From Hyalella azteca (Eukaryota; Arthropoda; Malacostraca; Amphipoda; Hyalellidae), in NCBI RefSeq assembly GCF_000764305.2, contig NW_025947279.1, positions 62,001 through 126,000 on the forward strand: 64,000 nucleotides of DNA. The letters are read 5' to 3'. Numbering within the stretch: the first letter of the stretch is position 1; each line of letters opens with the position of its first letter. The translations under genes and the position numbers were made by a program. This document shows, one piece after another, positions 5,821 to 54,800 of this stretch. The notes below the pieces were generated by a model. The model had not been told where the DNA came from. It searched no databases and saw only the letters and a program-made list of their open reading frames with translations.

Positions 5821-6369
5821 ATGATAATAAAAACAACAAGCAAGCAGTTGGTCGCCCACAGAATAATGAATGGCTTGAGTGACACGATTCATGCCATAGT
5901 GTGGGGGCGGGAGAGGGAAACTTCAGCGTTAGAAGGATTACAAAATAAAATGGACATCTCAGTGAAAAGATGCGGTTTTTTCGTAGACAAAGATTTTCCT
6001 TATTTAGGTGCATCCCCAGACGGTCTTGTGGATCATGACCACGTTGTTGAAATCAAATGCCCAAGCTCTGCACGTTATTTCAAGACAATAAAAGATGCTG
6101 TGATTGCTATAAAATGCAATCATTTGAAAGTCGTTGACGATCAAATAATAATGAACAGAAGGCATTCCTACTTCTTCCAAGTTCAAGGTCAGATGAAAGT
6201 TACCGGACGAAGTAAATGTTATTTCGTGACCTGGATACCAGAAGATATACATATAATTGTCGTTGAATATGAACCGATGTTTTGGCTCAAGCGAATGGAA
6301 GTGCAGCTTAAGAATTTTTACTTAAACAATATGTTACCTTGCATTATCAACGATGATGTTGAATATTGA
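5821..6369 (+). CDS. YqaJ-like exonuclease domain protein (lambda-exonuclease superfamily), element-associated, probably 5'-truncated
   Basis: An ATG-initiated frame of 182 residues. It carries the hallmarks of the YqaJ/lambda-exonuclease fold, a PD-(D/E)xK nuclease: WGRERE near residue 28 with the conserved Glu, PYLGASPDGLV near 61 with the catalytic Asp, VVEIKCP near 75 with the catalytic Glu-x-Lys, and YFFQVQGQMKVTG near 117 with the conserved Gln. It ends with the usual FW...L..FY tail. Such domains are widespread in arthropod genomes, commonly as repeated, element-linked proteins, and descend from phage-type recombination nucleases. The usual N-terminal part of the domain is missing from this frame. 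A short ICKL-containing stretch in another frame just upstream (about 5785-5800) suggests a frameshifted start. All key residues are present, so the core looks little decayed. I do not claim activity. Confidence 0.7.
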   Translation: MIIKTTSKQLVAHRIMNGLSDTIHAIVWGRERETSALEGLQNKMDISVKRCGFFVDKDFPYLGASPDGLVDHDHVVEIKCPSSARYFKTIKDAVIAIKCNHLKVVDDQIIMNRRHSYFFQVQGQMKVTGRSKCYFVTWIPEDIHIIVVEYEPMFWLKRMEVQLKNFYLNNMLPCIINDDVEY

Positions 6370-25969: not shown

Positions 25970-26313
25970 TGGACCATACTTTCAAAACTCGCTAAGTGAA
26001 CGAAAGTACTTACGCTCATTTTTCTTGTCTATGATTAGTAGATTTGGCTTGAAAGGCCTTCAATGATTACACGGAGCTTACGATCTCTTAACTTTTTAGG
26101 GCATATTCTCATTTATGGAAAAAACTCGGAGCTTACGATCTCTTAACTTTTTAGGGCATATTCTCATTTATGGAAAAAATGCACCATTGTGCTCGCCATG
26201 TCCGTCTGTCTGTCCGTCCGTCCGTGACCTCAAGTTGTCGTCGACGAGAAAATGCGCTCTCTGTCACTCACTGCAGTGAGTACTGAGTTATATTTTTTAA
26301 AGTATAGGCCCAG
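25970..26313. mobile_element. family A MITE-like element, longest copy
   Basis: The left end ctggaccatactttcaaaa and the right end tttaaagtataggcccag form imperfect terminal inverted repeats. The left 40 bases match the remnant at 7281-7348 and the right half matches the inverted fragment at 13585-13750. It contains a perfect tandem duplication (26072-26180, 55-bp period), a ctgtctgtccgtccgtcc array, and the palindrome tcactcactgcagtgagta. No coding capacity. Confidence 0.75.
26072..26180 (+). repeat. 55-bp tandem duplication inside the family A element
   Basis: Two essentially identical copies starting cggagcttacgatctctta at 26072 and 26127. The identity implies a recent event. Confidence 0.9.
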
Positions 26314-34986: not shown

Positions 34987-34994
34987 TATATAAG
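34987..34994 (+). promoter_or_regulatory. TATA box of the large SYGPP/(GK)n gene
   Basis: TATATAAG in the context ggcatatataagagctcg. Transcription should start about 30 bases on (near 35017), leaving a leader of about 150 bases before ATG AAG at 35169. The leader has one upstream ATG (35135, eight codons including its stop TGA). It is a strong, focused promoter of the type usual for tissue- or stage-specific cuticle genes. Confidence 0.7.
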
Positions 34995-35168
34995 AGCTCG
35001 TCTGCCGGTCCCTTCTTATTCCGTGTCCGGTCTCCGTCAAGAGAGGTGTCAAGTGACGAGTCTTTGGTGCCTTAAAAAGTCGAGTGCTTCTCTACGGGTC
35101 TTAAGAGACTTTTGCGACTGCTGCTCCAAGCCTGCATGATCGCTACTGGATACACGTGATTCTTCATT

Positions 35169-35174
35169 ATGAAG
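35169..35174 (+). CDS. exon 1, two codons (Met-Lys)
   Basis: ATG AAG followed by GTTAGC. A first coding exon of a few codons that splits the signal peptide is common in insect cuticle-type genes. Joining it to 45301 keeps frame and gives a better signal peptide (positive Lys before the hydrophobic core) than starting at 45301 alone. Confidence 0.5.
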
Positions 35175-38100
35175 GTTAGCCAAGTTTTAAATTCTAGCGC
35201 GTTAATAGCAAAATTTTCAGTTTTGCGCTATTCAAAATAAAATGAATGCAGAGAATATACCGTAAGAATGTGTTCAAATTCAAATTTACCACACGAAAGG
35301 CAACGTGTCATTGGTCCGTCCATACCAATTTTACCACTAATAAAATAATTATAACTATTATTTTAATTATTAGTAATTTCTAAAACCTGGGAAAATATGA
35401 TGAAAATTTCATCCTCGGCCAATTTTCGCTAAGGAGTTGATGTGGAATTGAATTTGAACAACAATAAGTGTGTTTTATCTAATTTTTGTAAAATTTAACT
35501 CCTTGATTTTTTTAAGATATAAAGTTTTGAGACGCCTTCTATTATAAAATATTAATTATGTAAACTCTATTTTTTCGCTTGGATGTCTGAATTAGATTAC
35601 ATTTTTTCTACTCAGGTCCACAGATCTTTCTATTTATCGTCAATGCCATTTTCAGGTCTACCCTAACGGCAAGCATTTCATCTTAATGTCAAAAAGTTAC
35701 TGAATATTTTCAAATTCAACGCCCCATAAGAAAAACAGAGTGCGCACACTCTCAACTTTTTAAAATACATTGTAGCTCGTATGCAGACCACGCTCTTTTA
35801 ATTTTATAGTTTTAGGAAATATTTTTTCCGGTAACTAACACATACACATTTCAAATGGAACTTTCGAAATTTATTCCGTCGTATTAAAATCTTTTTAGCA
35901 ACCCAATCAGCATGAGCTTTTCAAATAAAGCTACTAATGGGTATTTGTCAGTTTTTGAATTTGAATTGAATTCGAAAGTTTTCTTGTTCTCTTTCATTTC
36001 ATCGTCTTTTGATTAAGATGTCACTTACTGACAACAATTAATATTATTCTTAGCTGATTGATATTACTTTAAAATCAATGAATATTGACATTAAACTGAA
36101 AATAAATGAGGCTAATCTCAATTTCTAAAAATACTCAATCTACAAAAAAAAATATACATACACTGCATGCTAAGTTATGACGTCGGTTTGCTATGGTGTG
36201 CATGGTGAGTGCCTCTCGGCATACAGATAGAAAGCAGAAATCGTGGAAAGCAAAAATACTCTCATCAACTATGGATCAGCCAAACCTATAATGCCTATCC
36301 ATATGGCAAGTTATATTTACTGACTTGATCTACTTGTCATATGAAACAACTCTTATTCCTGATAGCTTTCTTACGACGTCCACTACCCGCACCAAAAGAT
36401 CTGAATCCATTCGTCGAGTGTTGTTTTTTCGTTCAGAAGATGGGACGACGCACGTACGCCGTCTTAAGTACGAGGTCGTTGCTGAAGTGAGCGGGAAGTT
36501 AGGCCGTTCACATACAAGATCAAAATGAGAAATGATAATGAAAAAATACTGACCTGACAATCTCTTAAAAGAGAAGGTATGTCGAGGAAAGCTGATTTCA
36601 TATTCTGCCAGTATCTCATACAGGGAATTTAATTTTAGGAAAAGCTTTAGTAATCATTTATGAAGTGTATGAACCGTTTCCAAAATAATACCAGAAACTG
36701 GGAGGTTTGTTTTAAAAATTATTATTGAATTGAGAATTCTAATAATTGACTATAAATAAAAAAGCCACTGAATTTTCTAACAAAAAAATGTCACTATTTA
36801 AAAATCCAGCAGCCTCAGTTAAAAGAGAAACTACACAATGGATGACAAAATCTAATTTTTTGCAGGAATGGCACATATAGGGTATTGCTTTAATTTATTA
36901 ATTGCATCTCAACAGTACTATATAATGAAGATGAGTGCCCGCATTATCTAAAAAAATGTACTCATTTTTATTTGGCGTGAAAGTTTTTTCAGTGGACAGT
37001 AAACATATGTTTGTTTCTGCTGTCAGCGGTCAGTAATCAAATATTAACGCGAGTGTTTTATTTCCCTTGAGATTGGCTCATTGCTGGGCCGCATGGACAT
37101 CGTATAAAGTTCACAAAACATCTTGTCAAATTTTCTGACGTAGCGGTTGTCATGTCCACTAGCCAATTCGAGCCAACACTCGTATGGCTGTCATGGTGCT
37201 TCATGGAGTTCAATATCCACAATAATCACCGGATCGACGCTTTTTTTTCTCTCTATATTTTCATTTAAGAACTTTTCTCAAACCTAAATTTCATCAACCA
37301 CCTACCTTTAATATCAAACCTAGGGATAAAACCTGCGACGTTTTATCAAATTCCCAAATGAACAAATAGGATACAATATTCTGAGAGCAAATACAAGTCA
37401 TCATGATGTAGCCTGCAATTTTTTTGTCAACTTTTTAGGACGCTTAAACCTGCTTCATTTGCATGCAAAAAACTAAGCACTTTTCCTTTCCGGCTTCACA
37501 ACAGCAGCCCAGCAGCAGTTCGTGCTGACATCATCAGCGAAGCTCGTTTCCTCTTTCCTGGTTTCAGACTAAATTTATATAAAGCTATTAAATTTGCAAA
37601 AACATTTATACTGCCTTTGCATTAGGTATTCTAGATCCCAAATTTCCCAATCATAATCCAAAATTTCTCTCATATTACTTTTTAAACCTTATTAGGAAAT
37701 CATTAATTTTTGGCATGATTTAAATTAAAACTCGTATAGTCAAAAGTTGTAGAACATATGTTTCACTAATTAATTGTAATTAGTAAAATACATATTCTCC
37801 CTAAATTATATTTGATATCTAATTAAGTAGGCTAGAAAAAATTTCATGGTAGCTATCTATAATTTATATAAATTTAACAATGTATAAAACCTACATGAAC
37901 TGCCGTGCCTATGATGATTTCTTGTAACAGAATTTGATATTCACCTTAAATTAGCATACTTAAATGTACTTGTGTTACTACTGCATTGAGTGTTAGCTAC
38001 TCAATAAAAGCGAATACTGTATAGTAAGAAGATAATAGCAGATCAATAATATTCTTGTCCAGAATTCTTCTCGGGAACCACTTTCTCCGCCTGCATTGCA

Positions 38101-41100
38101 GGACAGAACCGCCCGGATAACATTTGATCTTTATATCCCTTGCCCACACGACTGGTAGAGTTGCTGCATGCGGCCAAGCGACGATTGTGAGGCCCAGAGC
38201 ATATAATTATTGTATTGGCTCCGAATATTTCTGATAATTATATTAAAAGTTAACAATTTTATTGATGGGTACTTTGATGATCACTGAAAAAAATTGAGTT
38301 TTTTTTTAATATTTCTGCTGCAAAACACCGTTCGAACTTAGGTGTATTGCTGCTGTATATATACTTTCACATGTCCTGGCCCACGTCATGAGAGCCAGCA
38401 CCTGCTCTTGCACAAGCAAGAACAGATCATCTAGCAATCGCGAACCGGTTTTAGGTAGTTTCTTTGAGCACGAACGTTTTCGAGATGCATTATGAAGCTT
38501 TGAAGAAAATGATACGGTGCATCAAATGTTTCGAGATGAAAAAAGCTATAAAGTTTGAAAGAATGTTAAAAATCCAAGGAAGAATATGCTGTTTTATTGA
38601 TATCATTATTAATTTTATAAATATTGCAAACAAATTTTTAAATTGATGTTAGGAAAATCATTAAAGCTCGCTATGATCAAAATGCAAATGGTCGTTCAAG
38701 CACTTAGTCTGATGGTTAAGCTTTTATTATTGAAAATTCTCTGAAAAAAAGGGGAAAGATGGTTTACCACAGCACTTGGCATTTGAGAATTGACCTATCC
38801 TTTCCGCTCTCATCCCTTGAGTAACCTTAACGGTACTTCTCTGGTCGTCCTATTTAAACGAAGAACTTTCTCCTGAACGCACCCTATGCACGCGGGCTGT
38901 CCGTTTACTTATTCAAGCCCAATACATATGAAGATCTTGAAATGCATATCTGCTAGAAATATCATAGGAGCAAAGGTAAATTAATGTTTTCTATATTGGA
39001 AGCGATGTCAGAATTTCTCCCATCAATTCATTCATCACCAATTATATAGTTTCAGCGGCATGATCCGTTTACCTACGAACATTATTTTAGATGGAGGTAA
39101 ACATAGTTATAATTACAAAACTGCATTGTATTGTTTTTAAAATTTTTATCTTGGAACTTGATGTGGTTATATACTGAACACTCAAGCTTCTGAACCCGAT
39201 GATACAATTCGTGATTCAGATCATCATTCACATTCCGAGCGATTCACTCTCATTTTTCACCATGCAACTAAAAGGCCTCGGCTCTAAAAAGTTACTTCGC
39301 AAAAAAAAGTTGCAGTACAAGCGAAAGCAACTCGTGCCCCACGCCGCCCAATCCCTTCGGCAAGAAGTTGTCCGGCGGAGTCGAAAGTTACACGAAGATC
39401 AGATCCTGCCTGGGCAGACTTGAGAGTGCCTCTCAGTCCAAGCTTATCATCCTTCAAGCTTGTTTCAGAAATGGATGCAGATAAAGTTACACAAAGTGAA
39501 GCTATGTATAATTAGAATCGTGAAGAACAAATCAATCATTAGCGAATGATGGTGATATGATTGTTTCGACGGACATTATTCATGTGAAAATGAGGAGTGA
39601 CACTTTCATTATCGCTTGATGAACATAGGACTATTTCAATGTAAATTATTTGTTGATAAAGACGCCGCTCTCTGGAATTGATCACTTGTTCACGTCTCAA
39701 AAAAATTTTGCTTACAAATGCCATCATATGTTATGTACTTTTTTATGTTTGAATGAAAATATATGTTTGAAACGTTATGTGTGTGATAAGGAATTAAATT
39801 ACTTCTGGATCATTCTACGCATTTAATACTCATCTTTGTTTTAAAAAGCTAAAAATTTTATTTTTTTTTCATTGATGCGCATGTTAAACGTGATTTATGT
39901 AAATTATATAAAAGTGGATTTTGGTATCACGAAAAAACTGTAGTTATATCATCCAGATATTATTTTGGTAGTAAAATTATAACAATTTTTCTGTTATCAA
40001 TGCTTGTAAATTAATGTAAAGTAATCACGACGGAGATTGATGGTGGAGATATAACTGATGCATTGTTGTACACCATATATAAGACCCATGTTTGAGGTGA
40101 GTTACTGTATCTAGCTGCAGGTCGGTAAGTGAAGAAAATATAAATTAATTTACGAGGACTTCCGACAGGGTATATAAAATTATTTTGTTTTTATTATGAT
40201 GAATTGTGATTTTTTTTTGCTAGAAAGAGCAAAGAGATACCCATAAAAATTATGAGTCTATTTTTTCAAAACTTCCTACTTAATTTATCTCACTTAAATC
40301 CAGATATACTTGGTCCTTGAAAAACCATATATAGTCTTTTATAGTAACCTCTTCTTCTCATTTCTTCTTAAGATGATTCAGACATAGTTATGGCAATACC
40401 CGTTTTTCCAGACACGTGAAATGGATACATGAATTTAGTAGTAACAAAGCCGTTAACAAAGGGTTCTTTATCCGAAGGTAACGTTACTATGCACTTCCTC
40501 TTTCAGTGATATTAAAAACTTTTTAATTGTATTTATACTCTCATTAATAAGATTGCTAGTCATTGTCTCCTATATTAGTTAATTATTCGTTTGTATGTCC
40601 CTTGATTTGATTGAGGAAGAAGTGGCATACCGTAGACACGTCGTCAGGCGGTCTAGGGGAGGTGTAGGTTTCCTCTGACGCTCATTATATTGGACTGCTG
40701 ACTGGATTGGTGAAGTCTGCATGGGAGTTTCACCGGCAGCACATGAGCCCAGCGTCATTCCAGATACAGAGCTTTGTTTGCTCTCCCGTTATTATTAGTT
40801 TTGTGCTTGCAGTCGAATAAATTATATATCTGTTTAATAATGGCAGATCTCTGATTAATAAGCTTTAATTTCGTACGCTAATTTTTGCTCGCGAGTTTTC
40901 GCACGTACAGTACAGCCGATGTTACTTCATCACCAATATTCTCGGTTGATATTTTAGTGCTTACAAAGATTACCTGAAATTTAAATTAAAATTCAGAAAA
41001 GATGTCATCGCATCGTAATGCAAGCTTTATATTTCTTTCTTTTTCGCGTACATTATTACAACATGTTATTTGGCTTCACAAATTACAAGCTGCGATAATT

Positions 41101-44100
41101 TTTTTTTTTTTTCGAACTGATGTTTACGTCCAATATGAGTTGGCAAAATATTAACGGATAGTTTATTAGATATTTGCGCGCTGACGATGCCAATTCCAGG
41201 CAATGAAATTATTAGATCCATTCGTGGCTGTTACCTCACTGAAAATCATCACTTCATTGATCATATATTCATTTAGGACAATTTATCATTCACTTCTATC
41301 AATACGATAAATATTTTCGGTTTCGTTTCTAAGATAAGAATGTGGTTATTTTCGCATACACGCATATATTTTTGCAAATAAAGCACTATTTGCTAAAAGA
41401 CTCGTTAAAAATTCGGTAATGAATTATTTACAATGAAATTTGTTTACCTGCATACTAATATATTGCCTGCACAGTATTGCATTTCATTTTCAAATGGTAT
41501 TTATAATTAACCAAGAAAGGGCATGCCATGGAATTGGTCATCTAGCATTTCCATGGCAGGAGCCAAGAATATTATTTGAATGACAGTAAAAATTTACCAG
41601 GCGTTAAAAATAATTTAACAGCATCGAATTTTGATAAAATATTGTTCTTCTTTCAGGTATAGAAAAGGTTTCTATATCACGCATAGTAACTTTGGCAATC
41701 AAGTGGCTGAGCTATATAACTATTAATGAGCACGTCGTTTAAGCTGGGGCTATATTTTATTTCTTGTAAAACTTGTGAAGCGAATAATGAAGGTTAGATA
41801 TTATTGAAGGATTGACCAGATGATACAGTCTGAGGGGACGGAATTGAGAAAAATTATTTATGACATGAGATGTGCGTCGTTACAATCCATCGAGACTGGA
41901 AAAAATTATATAAAATGATGCTTTCACTGGGTGATTTTTCTATTTTACAGACTTGTATGCAGTAATAAACCTCTTGTAACCATGAAACAATCTTCTAGAT
42001 ATTTTATTTCCTCAAATTAAATTCCTTTTATTATACTTGCTTTACATTTCACTATAGCACGAATTCTGAATTAGTGCCGAGAGTTACTTCCTATTGGTAT
42101 AGTTCGGCACAGAAGTCCTTCCTTCGTGTAAATAAGCTTGATTGAAGACCAGAGAATGCCTTTTTCATACTTGCGTGAAAGAATACGTCCGCATATATTA
42201 TTAATCCCTGCACTATTTAAATTGCTAAATGAAATACAAAGTGCCAGCGTTCACCTTAACAATGAATAGACGATTCACCTTAAGACGATTCTTAAAAACA
42301 ATGAATAACTTTTAACGAAAATTCATTAAAAGATACTAAAATACATTTGATTTTGTATTCTTCTGAAATAAACAGAATTTCGTAAACTTATAAACGACTA
42401 ATGATTTGCACCTTAAAGAAAAAACTTTAGAAAGAAAGTGGCAAAAACTTGTTTAAAAAACGAGAAATTTGTTTTATTCACATTTGTATTCATTTAAACT
42501 CCTCAATAAATTTTACAAACAATTGCCGTATTTTCTTTTTATCCGGAAGAAAATTAATTTCAATTAAATGCTGGCTTGCGGTAAAAGTTTGATAATAATA
42601 TATCAAAATTAAGTTGCTCTTTCAGCCTCATTTGTTTATCAGCCTTTTATGAAATAATCAATTTGTTTACTACTGTCATTAATCACTACACAAGCTCGTT
42701 TTTCCTCCTCCTACACAAGTCTTATTCGAACTTCTCTATCAAATGACAGAGGCTCACTTTCTGGCTATAGCTTTCTCTGCCTCGCGAATCTGATTAATTG
42801 GCTCAATTATGCCATTGAATAATGTTCTGATTGTTTGGGGAAATGCCTCTCATCAAGTGAGAGTCTTTGCGTGCCTCTCGGATGGTCCTTTCGGTGTCTC
42901 CTAGTCGCAATAGTTGATGGAATCATGATCGTAATTAATATAAATAAAGACGCTGTAACAGTGCTGCAAACGTAGACCAAAGCTTTTAATTGAAATAATG
43001 CTGTGCTGGAATTGATAAAGTATCAATAATATACTTTATTGTTTACCATCGTTATAATATAAAGTTTTCCCACGCATCATTCGAGTCAAAGCGTGTTTTT
43101 TGTTTGGAAAAGTCCATAATTTGATCAAGGCTATACACGCTCGTATCAGAGTGTAAATTTTATCTTTTTAGTTGTAAATTCTTTGTCTTTGGTAACAAGC
43201 AGAAGCTTGCATAATAAAAATCCCATAATGATACGTCGCGAGTTTTTTTTCTTTAAGGGATTTATCTTTCCAAACTTAAGCATTTGGTACGGAGATGTTT
43301 CTAGTTATAATATTCCTATTAATAATATTTCATTTGAAAGAACACCCTTGTAATTTTCAATCGGCCAATTGAAATTGAGAATTTTAAAGGTGTCTCTAAA
43401 AAGTGAACTTCTTTAAATTAATAACTCTATTATTTCGAAACCTTAAATAAAAATTTCTTTTAATTTTTTCTTTGTACGAAAAGTCTTTGAGTTGAGTTTT
43501 GGCTATTTTCAGACCTTGAATGGCTTCTAAAAAATATGCATATTTCTACTGCATTCGAATTCATCTCAGCGCCGCCTCGCATTTTGAGGAATGCATGCAA
43601 CACGTGACGGTGTTCTAATAATTATATACCAGGCGATCCGTATGGGCACGAATCTAGTGAAAGTTATCGGTATTTTGACGTGAATTGTATCGAGTTTTGA
43701 CTCTCAAAAACTGAAAGTAACTTTCACCTACTGAATTCAAAGCAAGACTTAATTGTTTTCTACGTCAAAAAAATTCGAAGTGTTCTGAAATGAGGTCTTG
43801 ATTAAGTACAAAATAATGTAATTAATCAAATTTGTACATGTACAAATTTGAAAAATAGTTGAATAAGTACATAAAAAGGCCCGTTGCTATACGTTTATGT
43901 GAAGGAACACTTACAATTGCTCAGGGCGCATTTTTGCATAAAACAACCACAAAAAAAAAAAACATTCTATGTTAGTGTTCGAGTTATATACCATTGATAA
44001 ATATATCAACTTTGTTGATTCTACCTCCATACTGAGCCGTTGACAGTGCACAGCTTTTGTGCTCCCAGTCCGAGCGATGCAGAAGTATAAAACACCACAG

Positions 44101-46270
44101 AGCTGACAGATGTCACAGATGTCAGCTGAAGAGTAAAAGTGCGCTACTTGCAGCCCATCTGGAATGCAAGAACACTAATACAATGAGACACCCGAACTGT
44201 TTGTGCACTAAACTGAGTTCGCTGGCGATGTGTGGACTTGTTTTAAGCTGGTCGTCTAGTTTGGTTGAGTCACAACTCCACATCAATATGCCGTTTATGA
44301 ATCAATAGTGTTCGTTGACGACGAAATTTTTCCGTTAAAAACCATCCTGACAAAACTGAATTAATGATGCTTGAACTGAATAAAAACTTCATGTTTCAAA
44401 TCGTTGAGCGATTCAACGGCACCTGTGATGCTTTTGCGAACAATTACAAGTCAGCGTCATTTTACTGCATATTGCAGAGGCTTAAAAAATTTCTATCCAC
44501 AGACGGAATTCTTAACTTGAGTTGCAAAATTTTTAATTATCGGTCTGATGAAGTAGATAGTTGGTTGATTTATATCGATTTGTACTTAAATTAATATGTA
44601 CTTAATTAATATCAAATTATGAACTGTTTAATTCCATTTCAATACACGCCACTGCCACGAAAAGACGCGTGTTCTTAAAACCAATTCGATAGGCCAAATT
44701 TAAAGGATAAGCGATAAGTTGAAGTGTCCTATATATAGGCCGACCACGAGACTGTTGACACTTAGAAAGCACGACATCATAATGCAAGTCACACACAAAC
44801 TGCGCCGTGCACGACTTGGACATTCATTTACCCTTTCACTTCCTAGCGCGCCGGTTCTTTTAAAGCAACCGAGCCTAACTTGGCATTGAGCCGATATGGA
44901 AGATTCCATCATGCATTTATTATGCCTTCAATTCTCCTTGCCGCGTTATTTGGATTTGGTATCGTCAAAATATTAGTTTCATTTATATATTTAATCATAA
45001 AATTGCCATGCTTTTTTTCAGGTACTATTTATATTTTATTTTGCGATGATGCCCTGTTTTCCAGGTTGCTTCTTTGAACTCGAAAATTTAGTTTACTGAA
45101 CACAAACTTCCTACAAATTTTGTAATAGTTAGAGATATTTAAATACGGTCCTTTCGGTCATTTCATCTGTCTCTTCAGTTTTGTTCTGCGCCCGTATCCC
45201 ATCAGGAAATCATTTTTAATGAGTGACTATCCTACTTTTATGTGAGATGCCTTTTTACCAGCATTATTGCTTATCACCACAGCCCTTCTCTTCGTTGCAG
45301 ATGTTGAACCTCGCGTGGCTGCTGATGGCGCTGAGCGTCGCACGAGCAGACCATCCTCCCCCGGCGGCGTCTTATGGCGCTCCTCCACCGACCTATGGTC
45401 CACCTCCTGCTCCATCTTATGGACCACCTCCTGCTCCATCTTATGGACCTCCTCCGGAGCAGAGTTACGGGCCACCACCGGAGCAGAGTTACGGTCCACC
45501 ACCAGAGCAGAGTTACGGACCACCACCAGCTTCGTATGGCCCTCCAGCTCCGACTTACGGTCCACCAAAAGCGACGTACACGCAACTAACTCCCATCTAC
45601 CCAACTTATATACAAGCCGTTCCTGCCTACATCGTGCCAATACCTCATCACGAGGTGCAAGGTGGCAAAGGCAAAGGGAAAGGAAAAGACAAAGATAGCT
45701 TTTTCCAAAAGGTAGGCTAACTTGTGGGCATGTGCTATAAACGCAATCAATTTTCGCTCTGCTGTTTTGTTTACAAATTTTGCATAAATGAATTCTTAAA
45801 TTAGGTATTGAAAAAATCACTGTTGCAAGAGTATGCAGGTCGATTGATTTCACAGCCTATCATGACGCTTGGAACAGTTTCATTATCTCATTTCAGTTCT
45901 CGATCTTTGTGAATTTTTATTGAAGAGCTCTCAGCTGTTTTGTGTCCCTTTCTTTCAACATTTCATCTCTTTGTAAAAATCTGTTTCACGCATGCGCACG
46001 CGTAAGCTTTCGGATCTTCTTGAAATTATTGATCCAATGGCTTTCAAATTATTTTTCAATTTTAATGCATATGCTTCTTTCATTTAATCCACTTCACCCT
46101 CAGCATGTGCCAAGATAGTATCAGCTCAAAATTAGTGAATCCTCCTTTCATTTAAAATGCTTTAATTTCCTTGCATTTTAGGTCACCAAGTTTCACGAAT
46201 TAATCATGAACGGGATACATGACATAAAAACGTTTCATGCTAATTATAAGTCAAAGTCATTTATCAACCA

Positions 46271-46310
<40 letters not shown>

Positions 46311-49300
46311 GTTCCACTTTACCGGACTTTAATTAATTTTTTTTTTAAATTGCAAAAAATATATAAAAAAAACTTGACCTGGCTGGACCTAACCTCAGTA
46401 AAACGGTCTCTAGCAACCTAAAGAAGGGTTTTAGACACTTCAAACCCTAACTCTAACCCTAACCTAACGAGGTTGGCGTTTTTTTGGTGTCCGGTAATGT
46501 AGTTCATTTATTTTCGTGTCCGGTTATTATACATAAATAAGTACTAGCGTCAATTACCGGACTCGATTTTTGTCCGGTTTTGTACCCGATGTCCGGTAAT
46601 GTAATATACAAATCATTCATTGCACATAATAAAATTGTTGAAGAAAATCTATCCATTCTTCTATCAAGGAAAAACATTTTCAGATGAATATCTGTTGTAT
46701 CTATTAACACAAAATCTTTACTCCAGACTTTAACTTCGTGAGCGCCATGCTACTTAAGATTCTGATTTCTGTCTCAGCCTTCGATGGAAAGCTCGGGGAA
46801 TGTTTGCAGGAATTTGGGGCTCGTACTGTTTTTTATTTAAAAAAAAACTTCATCTCTAAATTTCAACCAATAAACATCCTTTTCCTGTCAGCAATTTTTT
46901 CAACGCCTTTCAACCTTTATGAACACAAACATTCAAAATTTGAAATTTATGCTTGCTTCTAAATCGAATCCTCAAAACTGTTTATTCACGTTCAATAACA
47001 TTTCGTTTTCAAAATAAAACTGTAGGCAAATTCAATGTAAGAATTAATTTTCAAACCTACACGGCAATGTCCGTTCACCCGAGTGCCCATCCTTGGCCCC
47101 GACAGAAAGGCAACAAATACTATTTTCCTGAAGAAATTCGTGAAAAGTTCCAGGAACTTAAGGACGCCAAAGAATACATCAAAGTGGGCCTCAATAATAT
47201 CAAGAGCAAAATTCTGGAGTGGAAGGGACGTTTGAAGAGGGCCAAAGGCGCTTTCTTTGCGGACAAAGGAGAACAGCTCATCGATCAGGCCCTTGATCTT
47301 TACACGCCGCAAGAGGGCAAGGGCAAAGGAAAGGGAAAGGGAAAAGGCAAAGGCAAAGGCTTTGATGACTACGAAGACGGTTAGTGAAATTAACTGTATT
47401 TCACACAATTCTACACAGGACTTTACAGGCCATATTATAATTCATGCTATCCATGCTGTAGATTAGGAGTGAAGATTTTTCTCCAATTATAATATAAGTG
47501 GCACTTTCATGATTGCATCAGGTGTATTATGACTTCTCAGAAACATTTTATAGGAACAGTTATTTTTGCATGATTTTTGTTCAACACGTATAAAAACAAA
47601 GTTTTTCGCCTGAATGATAAATCATTATCAGTAATTAATGTTCACCAACGTTATTGTCAACTGTTGGCTTCTTCATGTCATGCATTTGCAAAAAGATTGG
47701 ATTTTTTTAAACTATTCAGTTCCTATTTTCCCACCACTGTCGTTAGTAGGGAAGCAGCAAAATTTTTAAGAGCTAAACTAGAGGCCTAAAATTAAATCAC
47801 GCGAAGAGCTTCAGCTAGAAAGTCTTTGAGCGGCATGCGCTGCCATGCAGATGCCCAGCATACAGAAGAAAGCGCGCGGAATTGTCGATGATCTCTCGTT
47901 TGTAGCTCGCTCGCTACAGACCATAAGGTCGTTTCCTTTCGGTTTTCAAGTTCACTCTCGCCCTTTAAACTAAAATTGTTCATTATCGCTCCCACTAACC
48001 GTTTGAGTGCTGCCATTGAGATCTCGTGCATGTAAGGGAAATTTTTTAGTCAGTAGTCGAATTTGCAAAGCAATATTCACGTGAATGTGATTGAAAAATG
48101 TCATCAATTCGAATTGTTCAATAACATAAGCAACTTGTATATTTAGTTACAACTTATTTAATTATACGTCATGCTCTGTTGGTTTCAGTAATAGTGTGTT
48201 CTATCTTTGCTGACCAGTGTTTAATTTTAGGCTACAAATTTTTCATTCGTGCAGAGAGCTCTTACGGAGGCTACGGATACGGTCCCCCATCTAGTGGATA
48301 TGGTGCTTCAGAAGGCAAAAGTAAGGGAAAGGGAAAGGGTAAGGGTAAAGGAAAAGGAGGTGATGATGTTGATTATTCTGGATATTATGATAATTATGGA
48401 GAAGGGAAAGGAAAGGGCAAAGGCAAAGGGAAAGGTAAAGGTTCCTCGAAAGGAAAAGGAAAGGGAAAAGGTAAAAAAGAGCCAGAAGTAATAGAAGAGC
48501 CATACCCTGCTCCAGTGGAAAAGCCAAAAGCGTCTTATGGGCCTCCACCTGCGCCATCTTATGGGCCTCCACCTGCACCATCTTATGGTCCTCCAGCTGA
48601 GCCTAAACCTTCATATGGACCCCCGGCCGAGGAGCCAAAAGGTTCTTATGGACCTCCACCAGCGCCATCATACGGCCCTCCACCTAGTCCTCCACAACAG
48701 TCATACGGTGCACCACAGGCCAGTTATGGCGCCCCAGCACCAGTTGAGTCGAGTAACTATCAAGTATTCAACCATGATGATAGTGAACCTCTCGCTCCGT
48801 CCGCACCTCCATCAAGTGGGCCTACATATGGAAATGGCGGTAATGACGAAGGAAGAGGCATTGGACATGCTTCAGAAGCTGTCAGTGAAGAATATGGGCC
48901 ACCTAAAACACATGACGTAGTTGAAGCGTCAAAGGAAGGGTATGGATCTGCAATAGGCGTTGGAGTTGGAGGAGGACCTATTTCAGATGATGGTGGTAAC
49001 GGTGGTGGAGGTGAAGTCAGTATTAATTCCAATGGCGGTAATGGAGGAGGTACTAGTGGTACGACATATGGTGATGGAGCTGTTGGGATAAGTCCAACCG
49101 TACAGAATGGTGGCTCGTTCGCCGTTGGCGGATTCGCAGATTCCGCAGCACTTGACGACATCGAGGAGGGCCCGTCGTCTTACGCAGCATTACCTTCAGT
49201 TCAACATTCTGTTTACGTTCAAGGTGGGGTTTTGGATTTTTTTTCGAGCATTTCTGAATGCTTCGACTGCAAGATCAATAGGGGTGCCTCACTAACACGG

Positions 49301-52300
49301 AATGGAATGCGTGAGTGTATCTATGAAATGTATATATAAACGATCCAAGTTCAGCATTCATCCAACGATATCCATAAATCCTGTCATTTTTTGGTGAAAT
49401 ATGTTATGCAGTTATGGAAGCTATGGAAAAATTAGGCCATGCATCAATCATCATAGCTTGCATCATTTACGTCGGCATTATGTAAATATAATGTTCATGA
49501 AATGTAATGAGGAAGGTATTTGAGGAGTAGAAAAATCCAAACATCCACAGTCAGAAACTCCAAGTATCCAACATACGAGCATCAACCTCCTCTCTGGATA
49601 TCCAAGAAGGCAAATGATATACTTTTTGAGGCAGAACCATAGTGCATTCGAACTGTGAAATGGAATAAAGTGTTCAGTATTGTGCGCGTTATGTAAAGCG
49701 TGGTCTTATTATCAGGTATTCGTAGAAAAGTACATCAAAATCATCTCTTTTTTGCGCTCAATTACTTCCAGTAGGAGCTGGTACTGGCAGCTTGACTTGT
49801 GTTCTTCATGGATAGTGACGCCATTCGACCAATAAATAACGATTAAAATTATTTAACATTATACTGATGAAACTAATTAATTTTTTTATTAGTCATGTAT
49901 TTTGAGTCGATCATCCTTCATTTCAGTTAACGTTCGAAAACTCTTCTACGCCTGATGCTTCTTCTACACTGCATCCAGAAAATTTCTGGAATTCATTTTG
50001 CTCATTTTTGAATGATACTTATGGCAAATTAAATCTGTTTCATTTTAATCTATTCAAACATTTTCAGTGTTCATTTGAACTAAATCCTGAATGGGTTAAT
50101 TTCTATTTTAATGTACAAATTTCATATTTTTCGCTTTGCGCCCTTAATCTCCCTATTCTCCCTATGCCAGCCACCAGAAAAGCTTAGAAACACTTGGGCT
50201 CTATTTATACACAAATAAACATAATTCATACACTTTTCTTTTTGGGTGTATTTTTAGGCCATTGGAACAGTCGAATTTGCAGAATAGCGTCTATCTTAAC
50301 ACAATTCTACTCCATGTACTTTTCATGCAAGTTCACACCTTTCGTTTCCTTTACTCACGACATCAATCGTTAAATCTGTTCGATATTGCATGTAACGGTT
50401 AAACGTTGGAAACCAAAATGTATACACGTAAAAAATTGCCAAAATAGTGCTTAAATGCCAGACTCTGCAAGTGCGCGGAATGTCGAAAAAGAAGCTAATA
50501 GGGGGCCAACGTGATGTGTAAATAATAATAACCCTTTAAATATATAAATCTCTGTTAACTAAATTTCCCATGAAAACTAAACCGTTAATCCCTAACTGCT
50601 CCCAATAATTGTTGCGTATTTTGATATATATATATTATGACATGATCACTTGCCGTGAAACTGAAATATTAGAGCACTCGTATATATAATTGAAGAGAAT
50701 AAATTCAATTCTGTAAAGTTATCTTTCGTAATAACTGAAAAAATGTATGATAAAAAATGAAAGTAAATTTGAACTGCAATTGCGCGAAACTCGCTAACGC
50801 GTTACCGAAACGCAGCGAATGGACGGCGCATTAGATCGCCCAATCGAAGAAGAGACTCGAGTCAACAACCTGGGCTCGCCTTCTACAGCTTCGTTCCCAC
50901 CCACTACGGCGAGTCGCCCCTGAGACGAGTACGGCGCGACGGTAAGCATCCGTCGGCTTCGTCAAGCTTCGAAAAATGTCTCCAGACTTCATCCATATCA
51001 GTCATTAAAAAGCGAACACTTAACTATTCATCCGCGAAGACTGACGAAACACATGTCATTAACTGTGGAAATCAGTTATGGATTAGCTTCAAAAATTTAG
51101 CTTACAATTATTGTAGAATAAGGCCACTTCCAGAACTCACGTCTTTTGAAACGGCAGTAAATTTTTCGACAAAATTTTATTATCTTTAATTTGACATCGA
51201 TGGAGCGATGCGAACTCGATGCAATTGAAATTGCGAAGATTTTTGCCGTGTTTTATATTGCGAATTTCATCATTAACTGATTATAATGGATCAGATATTT
51301 GATTAAACTATGGCAATCAGAGCAGTAGTTTGCAAAATTAATTTTGTTCATGAACCAAAAATTGAATGACTGCAAGTGAGGTAATTTTCCGCACCTCATT
51401 TTCTTTATCAAACAGTAAAACCAGGTAAAATGAACGCAAAGTTTTTGCCCTGCACTGTCTCAACCCGCTGTTTACATGTAGGCTCATGTTTCTGGTCTGT
51501 AGTTGTGCATAATATTAGCAACGCTAAATGCATAGATCGGCAGCAGGTTCAGGTGTATTATCCAGACTGGACTTCACGCTAGCTCATTAAAGGCATTAGC
51601 TCATGGCATCAAATAAATTTCATTTCGCTCTATTATGAGGAATTAAAAGAATTTTCTGAAACCAATCCCGTCTTATTGATAAGTGATGATGAATTTTACA
51701 AAAAAATATTGTAGACATTCCACTGATTAAATATCTGAATGTCTACTAATATAAAATTTATTTCAGAGAGCACGTATTCCGCTGTTCCAACCGGTGAAGT
51801 GCCGGTATCATCTGTGCATTCGCCACGTCTGTTCAACGTGGCATCGACTAGATTTGGACTTCCTTTCCTTGGATCCAATGGTGAGCAGCAAAATATTCGT
51901 CTAGCCATGCAGGCTGGAGCGTCACAACTTCCTGTTATTCCATCTTACATGTCTGACCTGACCATAGGAGTGGAGGAACCTAGCCTAAATAAGATGCAGG
52001 ATGCTTCTAACAGTCAGTTTATGACGCTGCCTTCTTCTACCCATCATCGGAAAGTTGCTATTGATGGCTTGTCCAAATTCTCTAAAAATGATGACCAATC
52101 AAACACGGAACTCGACCTAACTAACCCAGATACTGACTATGGAACTCCAAAGCCAATTGACATTGTGCATGATGGACTAAATTCTGCAGGGTTTCTTAAA
52201 ACTTTTATGGGTGACGATGCTTTCATGAATAACAATGTTAATGAAATATCAATTTCAACCCATCGCCATCCTAAATCGATGTCGTATCTATCTGAATCCG

Positions 52301-54753
52301 TTATAAATGTTGACACAAAAAGCGGCTTTCAAACAGATGAAACTCCGGGTCCACAGTTAAATTTTCTGACAGAAATTTCATCACTTGAAAAAGAAGCTCC
52401 TGCCCTTTCATCTTATAACACAAATCAAATGATCCCTGTTCCAGTGCCTCTTAGAGTGATTCCAGCCGGTTTAATCTTGCCAGCGAACGATTTTCCCGCC
52501 AGAGGAGTATCATCGTATTCATCTTATAATCCCTTCCCTGATGTCATTCAGTTCAAGGGTAAACATCCACCAGTTGGTAGCGCTTCGTATGCCCCTCCTA
52601 GTAGAACCCCTCGACTGCGACAAACTTCTGGGCTTTCTGTAAACGGCATGTTTCCTATTCAATTGCCGAACATGCAGTCTTCAAACTTGATGTTTCCTGA
52701 TCATAGTTTTAAACTTGCTCCTATAGATACTATGTTAGATAGTAGTGGTTCTTCTATCACATCTAATTTAGCTATCAGTAGGAAACCTACAATGAGTTCA
52801 TACTCGGACATTTCTCAAAGTACGTCGTTCACTCAAGAGTCTCAACGTAGTCTAGATTCTCAAAGCATGAATCAGATTCGACATCTCTCTCAACTCACCT
52901 CATGCAAAATGACCGGTACTCCATCTTCTTTTGGAAATTCGATTTCCGTGACCATATCACCACAGAATTCCAGAGACAATCCACTAACTATCATGAAAGT
53001 TCATTTGAATGAAAAATATGCGCCTGGCCTATTTAGTAATTCATCACCAACAATTGATGCCTCATCGCACTCATTTTTCCACACATCAAAAACTAACAAT
53101 GATAGAAGTGAGAATATTAATGACTATAAAGGTGGGAGATTTCAGGTGTCCGAGAAGTTTCGACACATGAAGCGTGAAAAACCGACACCGATTTCTAGCA
53201 GCGAGACTAACGAACAACCGGAACGAAATATTTCTTATGGAAACGGTTGGGAAATTATATATGGGGAACCTGCACATAACATAGCTCTTCCTATTTCAAA
53301 TAACCAACAAATAAATTTGCCAGTAGCTTCACACCTTAAACAAATCTCTGAAAATGAAGAGAAGCATCCCGATGTGGATGGCATAAAAATTTCTTATGGT
53401 ATGCCTAGACCATACACAATTTTTTCCGACGACGAACTTGCAGATTTCCGAAGCAAATCTTTCGCTCTACGCGTTAAACCTACTTTTGATCTTTTCCAAA
53501 AGAATATTGGAAGTAATTTAAAGAGTCAGAATCACAATAAACCGAATGACTTCATGACAACCGATATGACGAGCGAGCTCATAGACGTTGGACCAAACAA
53601 TAAGCCGAAAACAGTATCAAATTCATGGTCAAGTTATTCATCTTACCAACGTTCGAATTCATCCAAAGCATCACCTGAGTCACTTCCGAACAATATTAAA
53701 TTAGAATTTCAGGAACCGCTGATCAATTTAAGAAATAACCTTAGGGTTATCGACTTGCATAAGTTACAAGATGCTAGAAACCGTCTGGAATCCATTGGGA
53801 TGCATGAAGGTATGAAGCTAAATGATGGCTGGGCCTTAACTGATACAACTTCAGGAATTTTTAGCGTGCCAAGTGCTGTGGCTATAAATATTAATTCTCA
53901 AACAGAGCGCCTATCTAGAACTGCTGACAGAATTGGTGCAGATTTTCCTCCTAAGAACACGAATGACCGTCTTGTTGGTGGATTCATTCGAACTGTAATA
54001 GGTAATGCTCCGTCGTCGCCAGCTCCTAATAAAATTTCAGTATCAAATGAAACCCAAAACGGTATTACGCTTAGCGATTTAAATAATGGTGGAAATAATA
54101 TAGTTTCGCCGCCAGTGTTGAACACAATCATTCATTTGACGAATTTAAAATCCGTTGAGAGTTCAGAGTTTGATAGCGGACCGCTGAGTCGGTCCAGGGT
54201 TCTGAAAGTAGTTGAAGCTCCAGATCTGTCGAACGTTCCCACTGGCCAGGCATTCCCAAATGGGGTCAATGCTATTTTGACGAGAGATATTGTTGATAAA
54301 TCCCGAGCAATTCCAGAAATAGTGGTAATAAAATCAGTATCTATTCCGTCCTTCTTCGCTGAGAATAACATGCTCAATAGTTCATCAGTTACCGTGAAAG
54401 ACTCCCTTCGCTTTGGGACTGACTTGGTGCATGAGGCCAGTGAACTTTTCGTTAGACGAGATGACGCCTTCAAGTCTTCGAACTCTCCAAAAGCAGCTCG
54501 GTTATTAAGTGAGGGAAATTTTGCAGATGATGTTCTCATGAGTGTTTCTTCGATATTGAAAAGTAATTTCATCGCTAAAAACTCGAGTTTTGCGGAAGAA
54601 TATTTTCCCGATTCGAAAAGAAATGACTCGCTACCAGTAATAACAAATAATTCTACAATTGATGAATTGGGATATTTTTCGACAGAACCTCCTCCATTCC
54701 TTAATATAACTAGTTTATTCGAGCCCGTAAGTTTTAATTTAACTCAAAGCTGA
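35169..54753 (+). CDS. large secreted SYGPP/(GK)n repeat protein, five coding exons (~1,548 residues)
   Basis: Coding exons are 35169-35174, 45301-45711, 47106-47379, 48255-49223 and 51767-54753; phases are 0, 0, 1, 1 and all junctions agree. The protein starts [18 protein letters not shown] (signal peptide). It then has nine SYGPP-type repeats and a GK run (to about residue 139), a charged helical exon ending in GK repeats (140-230), a second SYGPP/GK/Gly-rich exon (232-553), and a long Ser/Asn-rich tail with scattered SY(G)xP motifs and NxS/T sites near its end (555-1548). Composition and signal point to an extracellular structural protein, in the broad style of cuticle or resilin-like matrix proteins. 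Tyr could allow cross-linking, and the (GK)n tracts are polycationic. I recognise no named orthologue. The first exon is linked by phase, position and typical insect architecture, not by direct proof; it is the least certain part. AATAAA lies at 54772 and 54795. Confidence 0.72.
38928..39484 (+). CDS. candidate nested two-exon small Cys-containing protein (85 residues)
   Basis: TATTTAAA at 38851 is followed by ATG at 38928, 16 codons and donor AAAG|GTAAAT (38975/38976). A 299-base intron ends in a modest acceptor (caactaaaag, 39274). The second exon is open in the matching phase 0 for 69 codons to TAA at 39484. It encodes a Ser/Lys-rich segment with spaced Cys ([20 protein letters not shown]) and a C-terminal ACFRNGCR. 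The second exon is GC-richer than its flanks. Against it: the first exon is not a signal peptide, the acceptor is weak, and other frames there are also open. Confidence 0.27.
40076..40124 (+). promoter_or_regulatory. second TATA promoter with very short first exon inside intron 1
   Basis: TATATAAG at 40076-40083 shares the extended CATATATAAGA context with the box at 34987. A perfect-type donor (GGTCG|GTAAGT) ends a potential leader exon at 40124. Spliced to 45301 it would let translation start at the ATG there. The predicted exon is only about 18-20 bases long, which is unusual. Confidence 0.35.
44086..44308 (+). promoter_or_regulatory. TATA promoter with short signal-like ORF or alternative first exon
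   Basis: TATAAAAC at 44086; ATG at 44183 opens 41 codons to TAG at 44308, with a hydrophobic segment ([20 protein letters not shown]). A donor-like TTTG|GTTGAG near 44264 would end a phase 0 exon compatible with 45301. It could be a small secreted peptide gene, an alternative first exon of the large gene, or chance. Confidence 0.27.
45301..45711 (+). CDS. exon 2: signal peptide, SYGPP repeats, first GK run
   Basis: 137 codons in phase 0. Hydrophobic core [15 protein letters not shown], then eight YGPP plus one YGAP units with PAP or EQ spacers, a Tyr/Pro/Ile-rich linker ([20 protein letters not shown]), a His pair, and [16 protein letters not shown] before donor AAAG|GTAGGC. Read-through past the donor stops after two codons (Val-Gly-TAA). 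The repeats create long open frames in other registers on both strands; those are artefacts. Confidence 0.82.
46276..46306. repeat. (TA)n microsatellite
   Basis: About 15 uninterrupted TA dinucleotides within intron 2 of the large gene. Confidence 0.9.
46309..46603. mobile_element. MITE-like cluster of TTACCGGAC motifs in intron 2
   Basis: TTACCGGAC begins the segment (about 46310) and GTCCGGTAA closes it (about 46593-46601). Inside are further copies in both orientations near 46489, 46519, 46552 and 46573. It also contains aaccctaactctaaccctaacctaacg (46443-46469). Just before it is a (TA)n tract (46276-46306). Confidence 0.5.
47106..47379 (+). CDS. exon 3: charged helical segment plus GK run
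   Basis: 274 bases, phase 0 in and phase 1 out (donor GACG|GTTAGT). The acceptor is atccttggccccgacag. It encodes [20 protein letters not shown] and a further 40 residues rich in Glu, Lys, Leu and Ile with heptad-like spacing ([18 protein letters not shown]), then [13 protein letters not shown] and seven to eight GK dipeptides ending FDDYED. Unlike the other exons it has no YGPP, so it may be a folded or coiled module. Upstream in-frame sequence (from about 46953) is open but out of phase with any earlier acceptor that joins exon 2. Read-through gives Gly-TAG. Confidence 0.75.
48255..49223 (+). CDS. exon 4: second SYGPP/(GK)n and Gly-rich exon
   Basis: Acceptor tttttcattcgtgcag; first codon completed as G|AG (Glu), then [20 protein letters not shown]. 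Three lysine-glycine tracts surround a Tyr/Asp spacer ([16 protein letters not shown]), then eight SYGPP or SYGAP units, an acidic linker, and a Gly/Asn-rich stretch ([20 protein letters not shown]). The donor CAAG|GTGGGG is weak. Read-through adds 39 residues with three Cys to TAA at 49339, and AATAAA follows at 49664, so a short isoform is plausible. A second in-frame acceptor exists at 48230 (+8 residues). The exon is phase 1-1, so skipping it keeps frame. Confidence 0.82.
49664..49669 (+). terminator. polyadenylation signal for a possible short isoform
   Basis: AATAAA about 325 bases after the read-through stop at 49339. Confidence 0.4.
50770..50941 (+). promoter_or_regulatory. CpG-rich patch with strong donor inside intron 4: possible internal promoter and first exon
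   Basis: About 170 bases of high GC with many CpG, unlike the AT-rich intron around it, ending at donor GCGACG|GTAAGC (50941/50942). It contains a 34-codon ATG frame (50819-50923, starting [17 protein letters not shown]) that stops before the donor. A transcript from here could splice to the exon at 51767. The unmethylated-CpG look fits a promoter active in the germ line, but this is inference. Confidence 0.38.
51767..54753 (+). CDS. exon 5: long Ser/Asn-rich C-terminal part (995 residues)
   Basis: Acceptor ataaaatttatttcag; first codon G|AG, then [15 protein letters not shown], mirroring the start of exon 4 (ESSYGG). The frame is uninterrupted for 994 codons to TGA at 54751-54753, far beyond chance. 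Ser, Asn, Pro, Ile and Thr dominate, with a single Cys (LTSCKMTG) and scattered relics of the repeat: [49 protein letters not shown]. Predicted glycosylation sites (NSS, NNST, NITS, NLTQS) cluster near the end. No known domain is recognised and it looks largely disordered. A consensus donor (GAGCCC|GTAAGT, 54726/54727) lies 27 bases before the end of the stop, so a spliced alternative end is possible. Confidence 0.85.
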
Positions 54754-54771
54754 TTCATAGATGTACATTGG

Positions 54772-54800
54772 AATAAACCTTAGCGAGTGAATGAAATAAA
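54772..54800 (+). terminator. polyadenylation signals of the large gene
   Basis: AATAAA at 54772-54777 and again at 54795-54800, 19 and 42 bases after the stop codon. A third lies near 54843. Confidence 0.65.

Follow-up and report, generated by a model that had tools for sequence, protein, structure and literature searches.

A candidate gene for a long secreted matrix protein with SYGPP repeats, Gly-Lys tracts and a helical module in Hyalella azteca

Gene model and coding evidence

We analyzed a stretch of 64,000 nucleotides from the amphipod Hyalella azteca (contig NW_025947279.1, positions 62,001 to 126,000 of the forward strand; hereafter, the window). Our subject is a set of five exons between 35169 and 54753 of the window that appears to make up a single genuine gene coding for a long secreted protein. 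The exons and flanking signals are listed below with the evidence for each; P0001 and P0014 are two relatives of the encoded protein, described in the next section.

35169 to 35174, plus strand: exon 1, coding part (Met-Lys); ATGAAG followed by GTTAGC, in a frame that agrees with exon 2
45301 to 45711, plus strand: exon 2, with putative signal peptide, first SYGPP block and first Gly-Lys (GK) tract; acceptor, donor, period-3 signal and P0001 alignment
47106 to 47379, plus strand: exon 3, with helical module (about 69 residues) and second GK tract; P0001 and P0014 alignments and AlphaFold2 helix
48255 to 49223, plus strand: exon 4, with more GK tracts, second SYGPP block and a Gly-rich acidic part; period-3 signal, repeat units and phases
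51767 to 54753, plus strand: exon 5, Ser/Asn-rich tail of 995 residues; stop-free run and motif enrichment, stop codon at 54751 to 54753
34987 to 34993, plus strand: putative TATA-like box, a consensus match ca. 180 bp 5' of the presumed start
54795 to 54800, plus strand: putative polyadenylation signal AATAAA from a pattern scan, with others at 54772 and 54844

Joined in frame, the exons give a 1548-residue open frame with a single terminal stop, which bears out the five phase-consistent exons proposed by the first-pass annotation; the three internal phases, considered alone, have a 1-in-27 probability of matching by chance. The introns measure 10126, 1394, 875, and 2543 bases. The uninterrupted last exon of 994 codons claimed earlier also held, exon 5 contributing 994 whole residues and a share of one further codon within a stop-free run of 1004 codons. 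This run and another of 404 codons are the two longest between 35 and 56 kb, and both lie within the gene. Since the longest stop-free run in 20 simulated 64-kb sequences was 195 codons, about one-fifth of the exon 5 run, a chance origin of the exon 5 frame was ruled out.

Pairwise comparison of the 17 SYG[PA]P units gave 108, 52, and 390 differences at codon positions 1, 2, and 3, respectively, an excess at the third position that is the pattern expected where it is the protein sequence that is conserved. A period-3 scan over the whole window, with a threshold that we set at 5, was exceeded in exon 2, exon 4 (peak of 16.2), parts of exon 5, and one weak spot at 39066 to 39419, while exon 3 produced no separate peak. 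The weak spot (5.2), which falls in intron 1, was rejected as an extra exon, its frames appearing noncoding by eye. An 81-residue open frame overlaps it.

Splice sites were scored with matrices that we set ourselves and ranked among all GTs or AGs. The donors of exons 1 to 4 fell within the top 1.8, 0.5, 2.5, and 0.4% of GTs and the acceptors of exons 2 to 5 within the top 0.12, 6, 1.5, and 13% of AGs, that of exon 2 being the best in the gene. Exon 1 is the weakest point of the model, with only six coding bases and a modest donor. Of the five first-exon candidates found between 30 and 45.3 kb, the other four (33434, 36193, 36202, and 40088) have better donors, two of these candidates are preceded by a TATA match, and there is a further, longer candidate at 40058. 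We retained 35169 because of its MK start, which is common to P0001 and P0014, and its upstream TATA-like box; as the first exon it is preferred, not proven. A seven-codon upstream reading frame (35136 to 35159) ends 9 bases 5' of this presumed start codon.

Throughout the 1548-residue protein there are 16 YGPP and 3 YGAP matches, 17 of which fit [ST]YG[PA]P, in keeping with the earlier count of 17 or so units. GK tracts of at least three units number five (one each in exons 2 and 3 and three in exon 4), so their reported spread over three separate exons was confirmed as well. The part encoded by exons 1 to 4 contains 15.0% Pro, 9.2% Lys, 7.6% Tyr, and 4.0% Val. There is one cysteine in the whole protein, and all 11 N-glycosylation sequons are in exon 5. 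The signal peptide in exon 2 was assigned by eye. With regard to charge, the first-pass annotation had described the GK blocks as polycationic, which stands for the short blocks themselves, locally basic (net charge of +13 for the GK region of exon 4), but not for the whole protein, with a net charge of -16 and acidic YGPP, Gly-rich, and tail parts. Judged from these calculated charges, the protein is a block polyampholyte, with blocks of opposite charge along one chain, and not a polycation. The suggested binding to nucleic-acid-like polyanions found no support in the analysis.

Relatives of the N-terminal part and the helical module

With the N-terminal 553 residues as the query, a search of 5.8 billion protein sequences scored 7988 candidates, 25 of which were listed at an E value of ≤0.001. 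The best match, P0001 (E value of 7.9e-24), is an unnamed 491-residue metagenome protein from the Joint Genome Institute (JGI) that aligned to residues 37 to 222 with 45% identity (94 of 208 columns, with 35 gaps, mostly within repeats). The helical module aligned without gaps, with 55% identity over 67 residues spanning the exon 2/3 junction (FFQK/KGNKYYF in the window protein versus LFTKKGGKTYF), which supports the join of exon 2 to exon 3. An unnamed 845-residue protein of the krill Meganyctiphanes norvegica, P0014, matched the module core, again without gaps (36% over 45 residues; phmmer E value of 6e-4, computed against the 25 hits only).

The module scored 70 against P0014, compared with a mean of 31 for shuffled modules, and none of 2000 module shuffles reached that score; nor did any of 2000 shuffles reach the real score when the module of P0001 was compared with P0014. 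Across the 25 hits, the module scored 178 with P0001 and 70 with P0014, and no other hit exceeded 36. P0023 was rejected as a member of the module family, with 115 of 1000 shuffles scoring equally high. The remaining 23 hits are explained by the YG[PAVI]P repeats that they all carry, since every one of the 25 has between 4 and 28 such units.

For exon 3 alone, AlphaFold2 predicted one helix at residues 9 to 66, with a mean predicted local distance difference test (pLDDT) score of 76.5, and the same helix was obtained with P0001 and P0014 added (mean pLDDT of 66.9, from a shallow alignment of three sequences). A single helix in exon 3 is thus predicted with moderate confidence. A helix with the core KxK[IL]Lx[WF]KG...KG is present in the window protein and in two of the 25 hits, P0001 and, more weakly, P0014. 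A search of PDB sequences with exon 3 gave five matches, the best with an E value of 0.21, which we took as chance.

P0001 resembles the window protein in its MK signal-peptide-like start, SYGPP repeats, Lys/Gly stretch, and helical module (SLFTKKGGKTYF...LEWKGRVLRAKG) followed by GKGKG. However, it is shorter, has no GK tract of at least three units, and ends in 162 residues rich in Thr, Pro, and Glu; apart from repeat-only matches, the alignment stops at residue 222 of the window protein. P0014 has in common with the window protein the MK start, the YGPP repeats, the module core (KAKILGFKGDILLKKG), an N/S-rich tail, and a single GK tract of three units or more, but the local alignment leaves out the first 17 module residues, the krill protein has LPKF repeats and numerous YPAP units, and its tail does not align with exon 5. 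The order common to the homologues is signal peptide, YGPP repeats, Gly/Lys stretch, and helix, and this N-terminal plan looks like that of an undescribed family, not of a one-off gene. The claim that no named protein has this architecture needs to be qualified to that extent: the N-terminal plan recurs in P0001 and, less clearly, in P0014, both of which are themselves unnamed.

Membership of exons 4 and 5

Exon 4 appears tied in to the gene by its phase and by YGPP and GK units shared with the rest of the protein. It carries SYGPPPAP and GK units like those of exon 2, and residues 332 to 373, within exon 4, match exon 2 directly (E value of 6e-5). It is a phase 1-1 cassette with a length divisible by 3 whose skipping would leave an in-frame product of 1225 residues, and for this reason alternative splicing around exon 4 is quite possible. 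The pentanucleotide AGAGC opens both exon 4 (48255) and exon 5 (51767) in the same phase, coding ESSY and ESTY, respectively. We also considered a motif of exon 4, YGPPK[TS]HD[VI]V, that recurs in the krill protein (YGPPKSHDIV). Initially, 0 of 1000 shuffles reached its score, but after masking of YGPP 346 of 5000 did, and since the resemblance was lost on masking, we did not count it as evidence.

We infer that exon 5 belongs to this transcript from its phase, from the closure of its frame just 5' of the acceptor, and from its enrichment in motifs seen in the rest of the protein, namely, YGxP (3), SY (11), and SSY (6), each count being reached by 0 of 5000 shuffles. Exon 5 had no PDB sequence match and no significant alignment among the 25 hits, and the one NCBIfam match to it was below the cut-off (E value of 0.084).

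Alternatively, the locus could hold two genes, or one with alternative 3' ends, so that exons 1 to 4 would encode a shorter YGPP/GK/helix protein and exon 5 would be part of a different transcript or of an isoform in which it follows exon 3 directly. Read-through of the exon 4 donor would lead to a stop at 49339 with an AATAAA at 49664, a direct join of exons 3 and 5 preserves the reading frame, an ATG at 51739 lies in the frame of exon 5, and P0001, with only 491 residues, does not align significantly to exon 5. Against this stands the enrichment of exon 5 in the same motifs as the rest of the protein. Besides, the exon 5 frame closes just 5' of the acceptor, the ATG there is followed by no signal peptide recognizable by eye, intron 4 contains no period-3 segment above the threshold, and the tail of krill P0014 is also rich in N and S (11.1 and 10.5%), though unalignable with exon 5. 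Overall, we consider separate transcripts unlikely, though with enough in their favor to be taken seriously, and prefer a single gene of five exons.

Elsewhere in the window, a 182-residue open frame on the plus strand (5821 to 6366) matches the YqaJ viral recombinase domain (Pfam PF09588; E value of 3.1e-15) and is probably part of a mobile element. A 55-base unit is duplicated in tandem at 26072 to 26179, with 100% matches.

Possible function and relation to known matrix proteins

By a modest margin of belief over doubt, we read the locus as a single arthropod gene for a long secreted protein of the extracellular matrix, most likely cuticular. The proposal of a material or coating protein made by the first-pass annotation survives in this form, in that a secreted protein of a matrix or coating, with resilin-like YGxP repeats and a helical module, agrees with the sequence, the predicted helix, and the homologues; what had to be corrected is its uniqueness and, beyond the short GK blocks, its polycationic nature.

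Several observations weigh against this interpretation. The acceptor of exon 5 scores weakly, and no relative of exon 5 was found in the large protein set (none of 7993 scored, at an E value of ≤10). The module match to P0014 would by itself lack significance at the scale of the whole database, and a whole-database search with residues 90 to 212, which include the module, gave no hit among 115 candidates, P0001 being found only with the longer query of 553 residues. P0001, which lacks the motif shared by exon 4 and krill, scores the same as krill once YGPP is masked. The YGPP repeats also attract matches to plant RNA-editing factors, so the repeats alone prove little; the plant MORF proteins among the hits (P0002, P0003, P0006, and P0012) were set aside as low-complexity similarity. 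Last, no chitin-binding or other known domain was detected above the cut-off in Pfam or NCBIfam.

The Pfam search gave no family at E values up to 10 for either the 553-residue N-terminal part or exon 5, and exon 3 alone gave one match far under the cut-off, over its GK tract (EBNA2_Core; E value of 0.05). The window protein did not match PF16058 (Mucin-like) or PF16042 (DUF4794), which among the eight hits scanned were passed by P0005 and P0021, respectively, and there were no Rfam matches at gathering scores. The R&R chitin-binding domain of resilin and the CPR family (RR-2) gave no Pfam match, and a rough R&R pattern was absent. The exact EPPVxxxYLPP pattern that follows the signal peptide in resilin was also absent, leaving only a loose PPPxxxY at residue 21, and the PSS[SQ]YGAP repeat core of resilin-like Group IV had no match, related SYGPP and SYGAP units being present instead.

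The window protein is nevertheless similar to resilin and the resilin-like Group IV, as these are described in PMC10743668, in its YGAP-type repeat core and, to judge from the putative signal peptide, probably in being secreted, and with Group IV it shares the absence of an R&R domain. It differs from both in its GK tracts, helical module, and long tail. Mosquito cuticle was found to contain one Group IV protein, and elastic properties are reported for a recombinant one (PMC10743668). By analogy, the window protein may function like them, yet we do not class it among them. The likeness to CPLCPs, which PMC12426002 describes as low-complexity and Pro-rich proteins with Lys, Val, and Tyr, is one of composition only. 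Three conserved motifs are reported for that family in PMC8062583; one cuticular-protein paper links Vajk-4 with CPLCP3. Literature searches gave no match pairing SYGPP with cuticular protein, YGPP with insect cuticle, or GKGKGK with cuticle, and for GKGKGKGK with insect only a paper apparently on trypanosomes. The table of a paper on crayfish shell contains one peptide starting with YGPPPPGPPP and no SYGPP repeat.

That the protein belongs instead to a silk, an egg coat, or an adhesive, with the GK blocks giving cohesion to acidic partners, is distinctly improbable. Low-complexity Tyr/Pro/Gly composition and charged blocks are likewise common in such secretions. Krill, however, are not known to make silk, and the existence of a krill relative argues indirectly against a silk. 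Equally indirect is the cuticular nature of the closest functional analogues that have been described (PMC10743668).

If the protein is a component of the cuticle, its Tyr/Pro (YGPP) repeats would be disordered and extensible and could be joined through their tyrosines as in resilin. The Gly-Lys tracts would provide flexible, amine-rich segments for quinone cross-linking or for ionic contacts, both with the acidic parts of the protein itself and with further components of the matrix. The conserved helix might serve as a site of association, with itself or with a partner, and the long acidic tail, with its 11 sequons and single cysteine and perhaps glycosylated, could act as a hydrated filler or spacer.

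More tentatively, and with doubt slightly outweighing belief, we propose that these proteins represent an undescribed matrix family across insects and crustaceans, in which a single-helix module (K-x-K-[IL]-L-x-[WF]-K-G) is set among YGPP and Gly-Lys segments to form a natural block copolymer with elastomer-like, cationic, helical, and acidic (perhaps glycosylated) blocks. If this is true, arthropods would have a matrix family with a recognizable nonrepetitive helix, by which relatives could be traced where the repeats mislead, and the protein would offer the study of cuticle mechanics and biomaterials a natural case in which elastomeric, cationic, and acidic blocks alternate.

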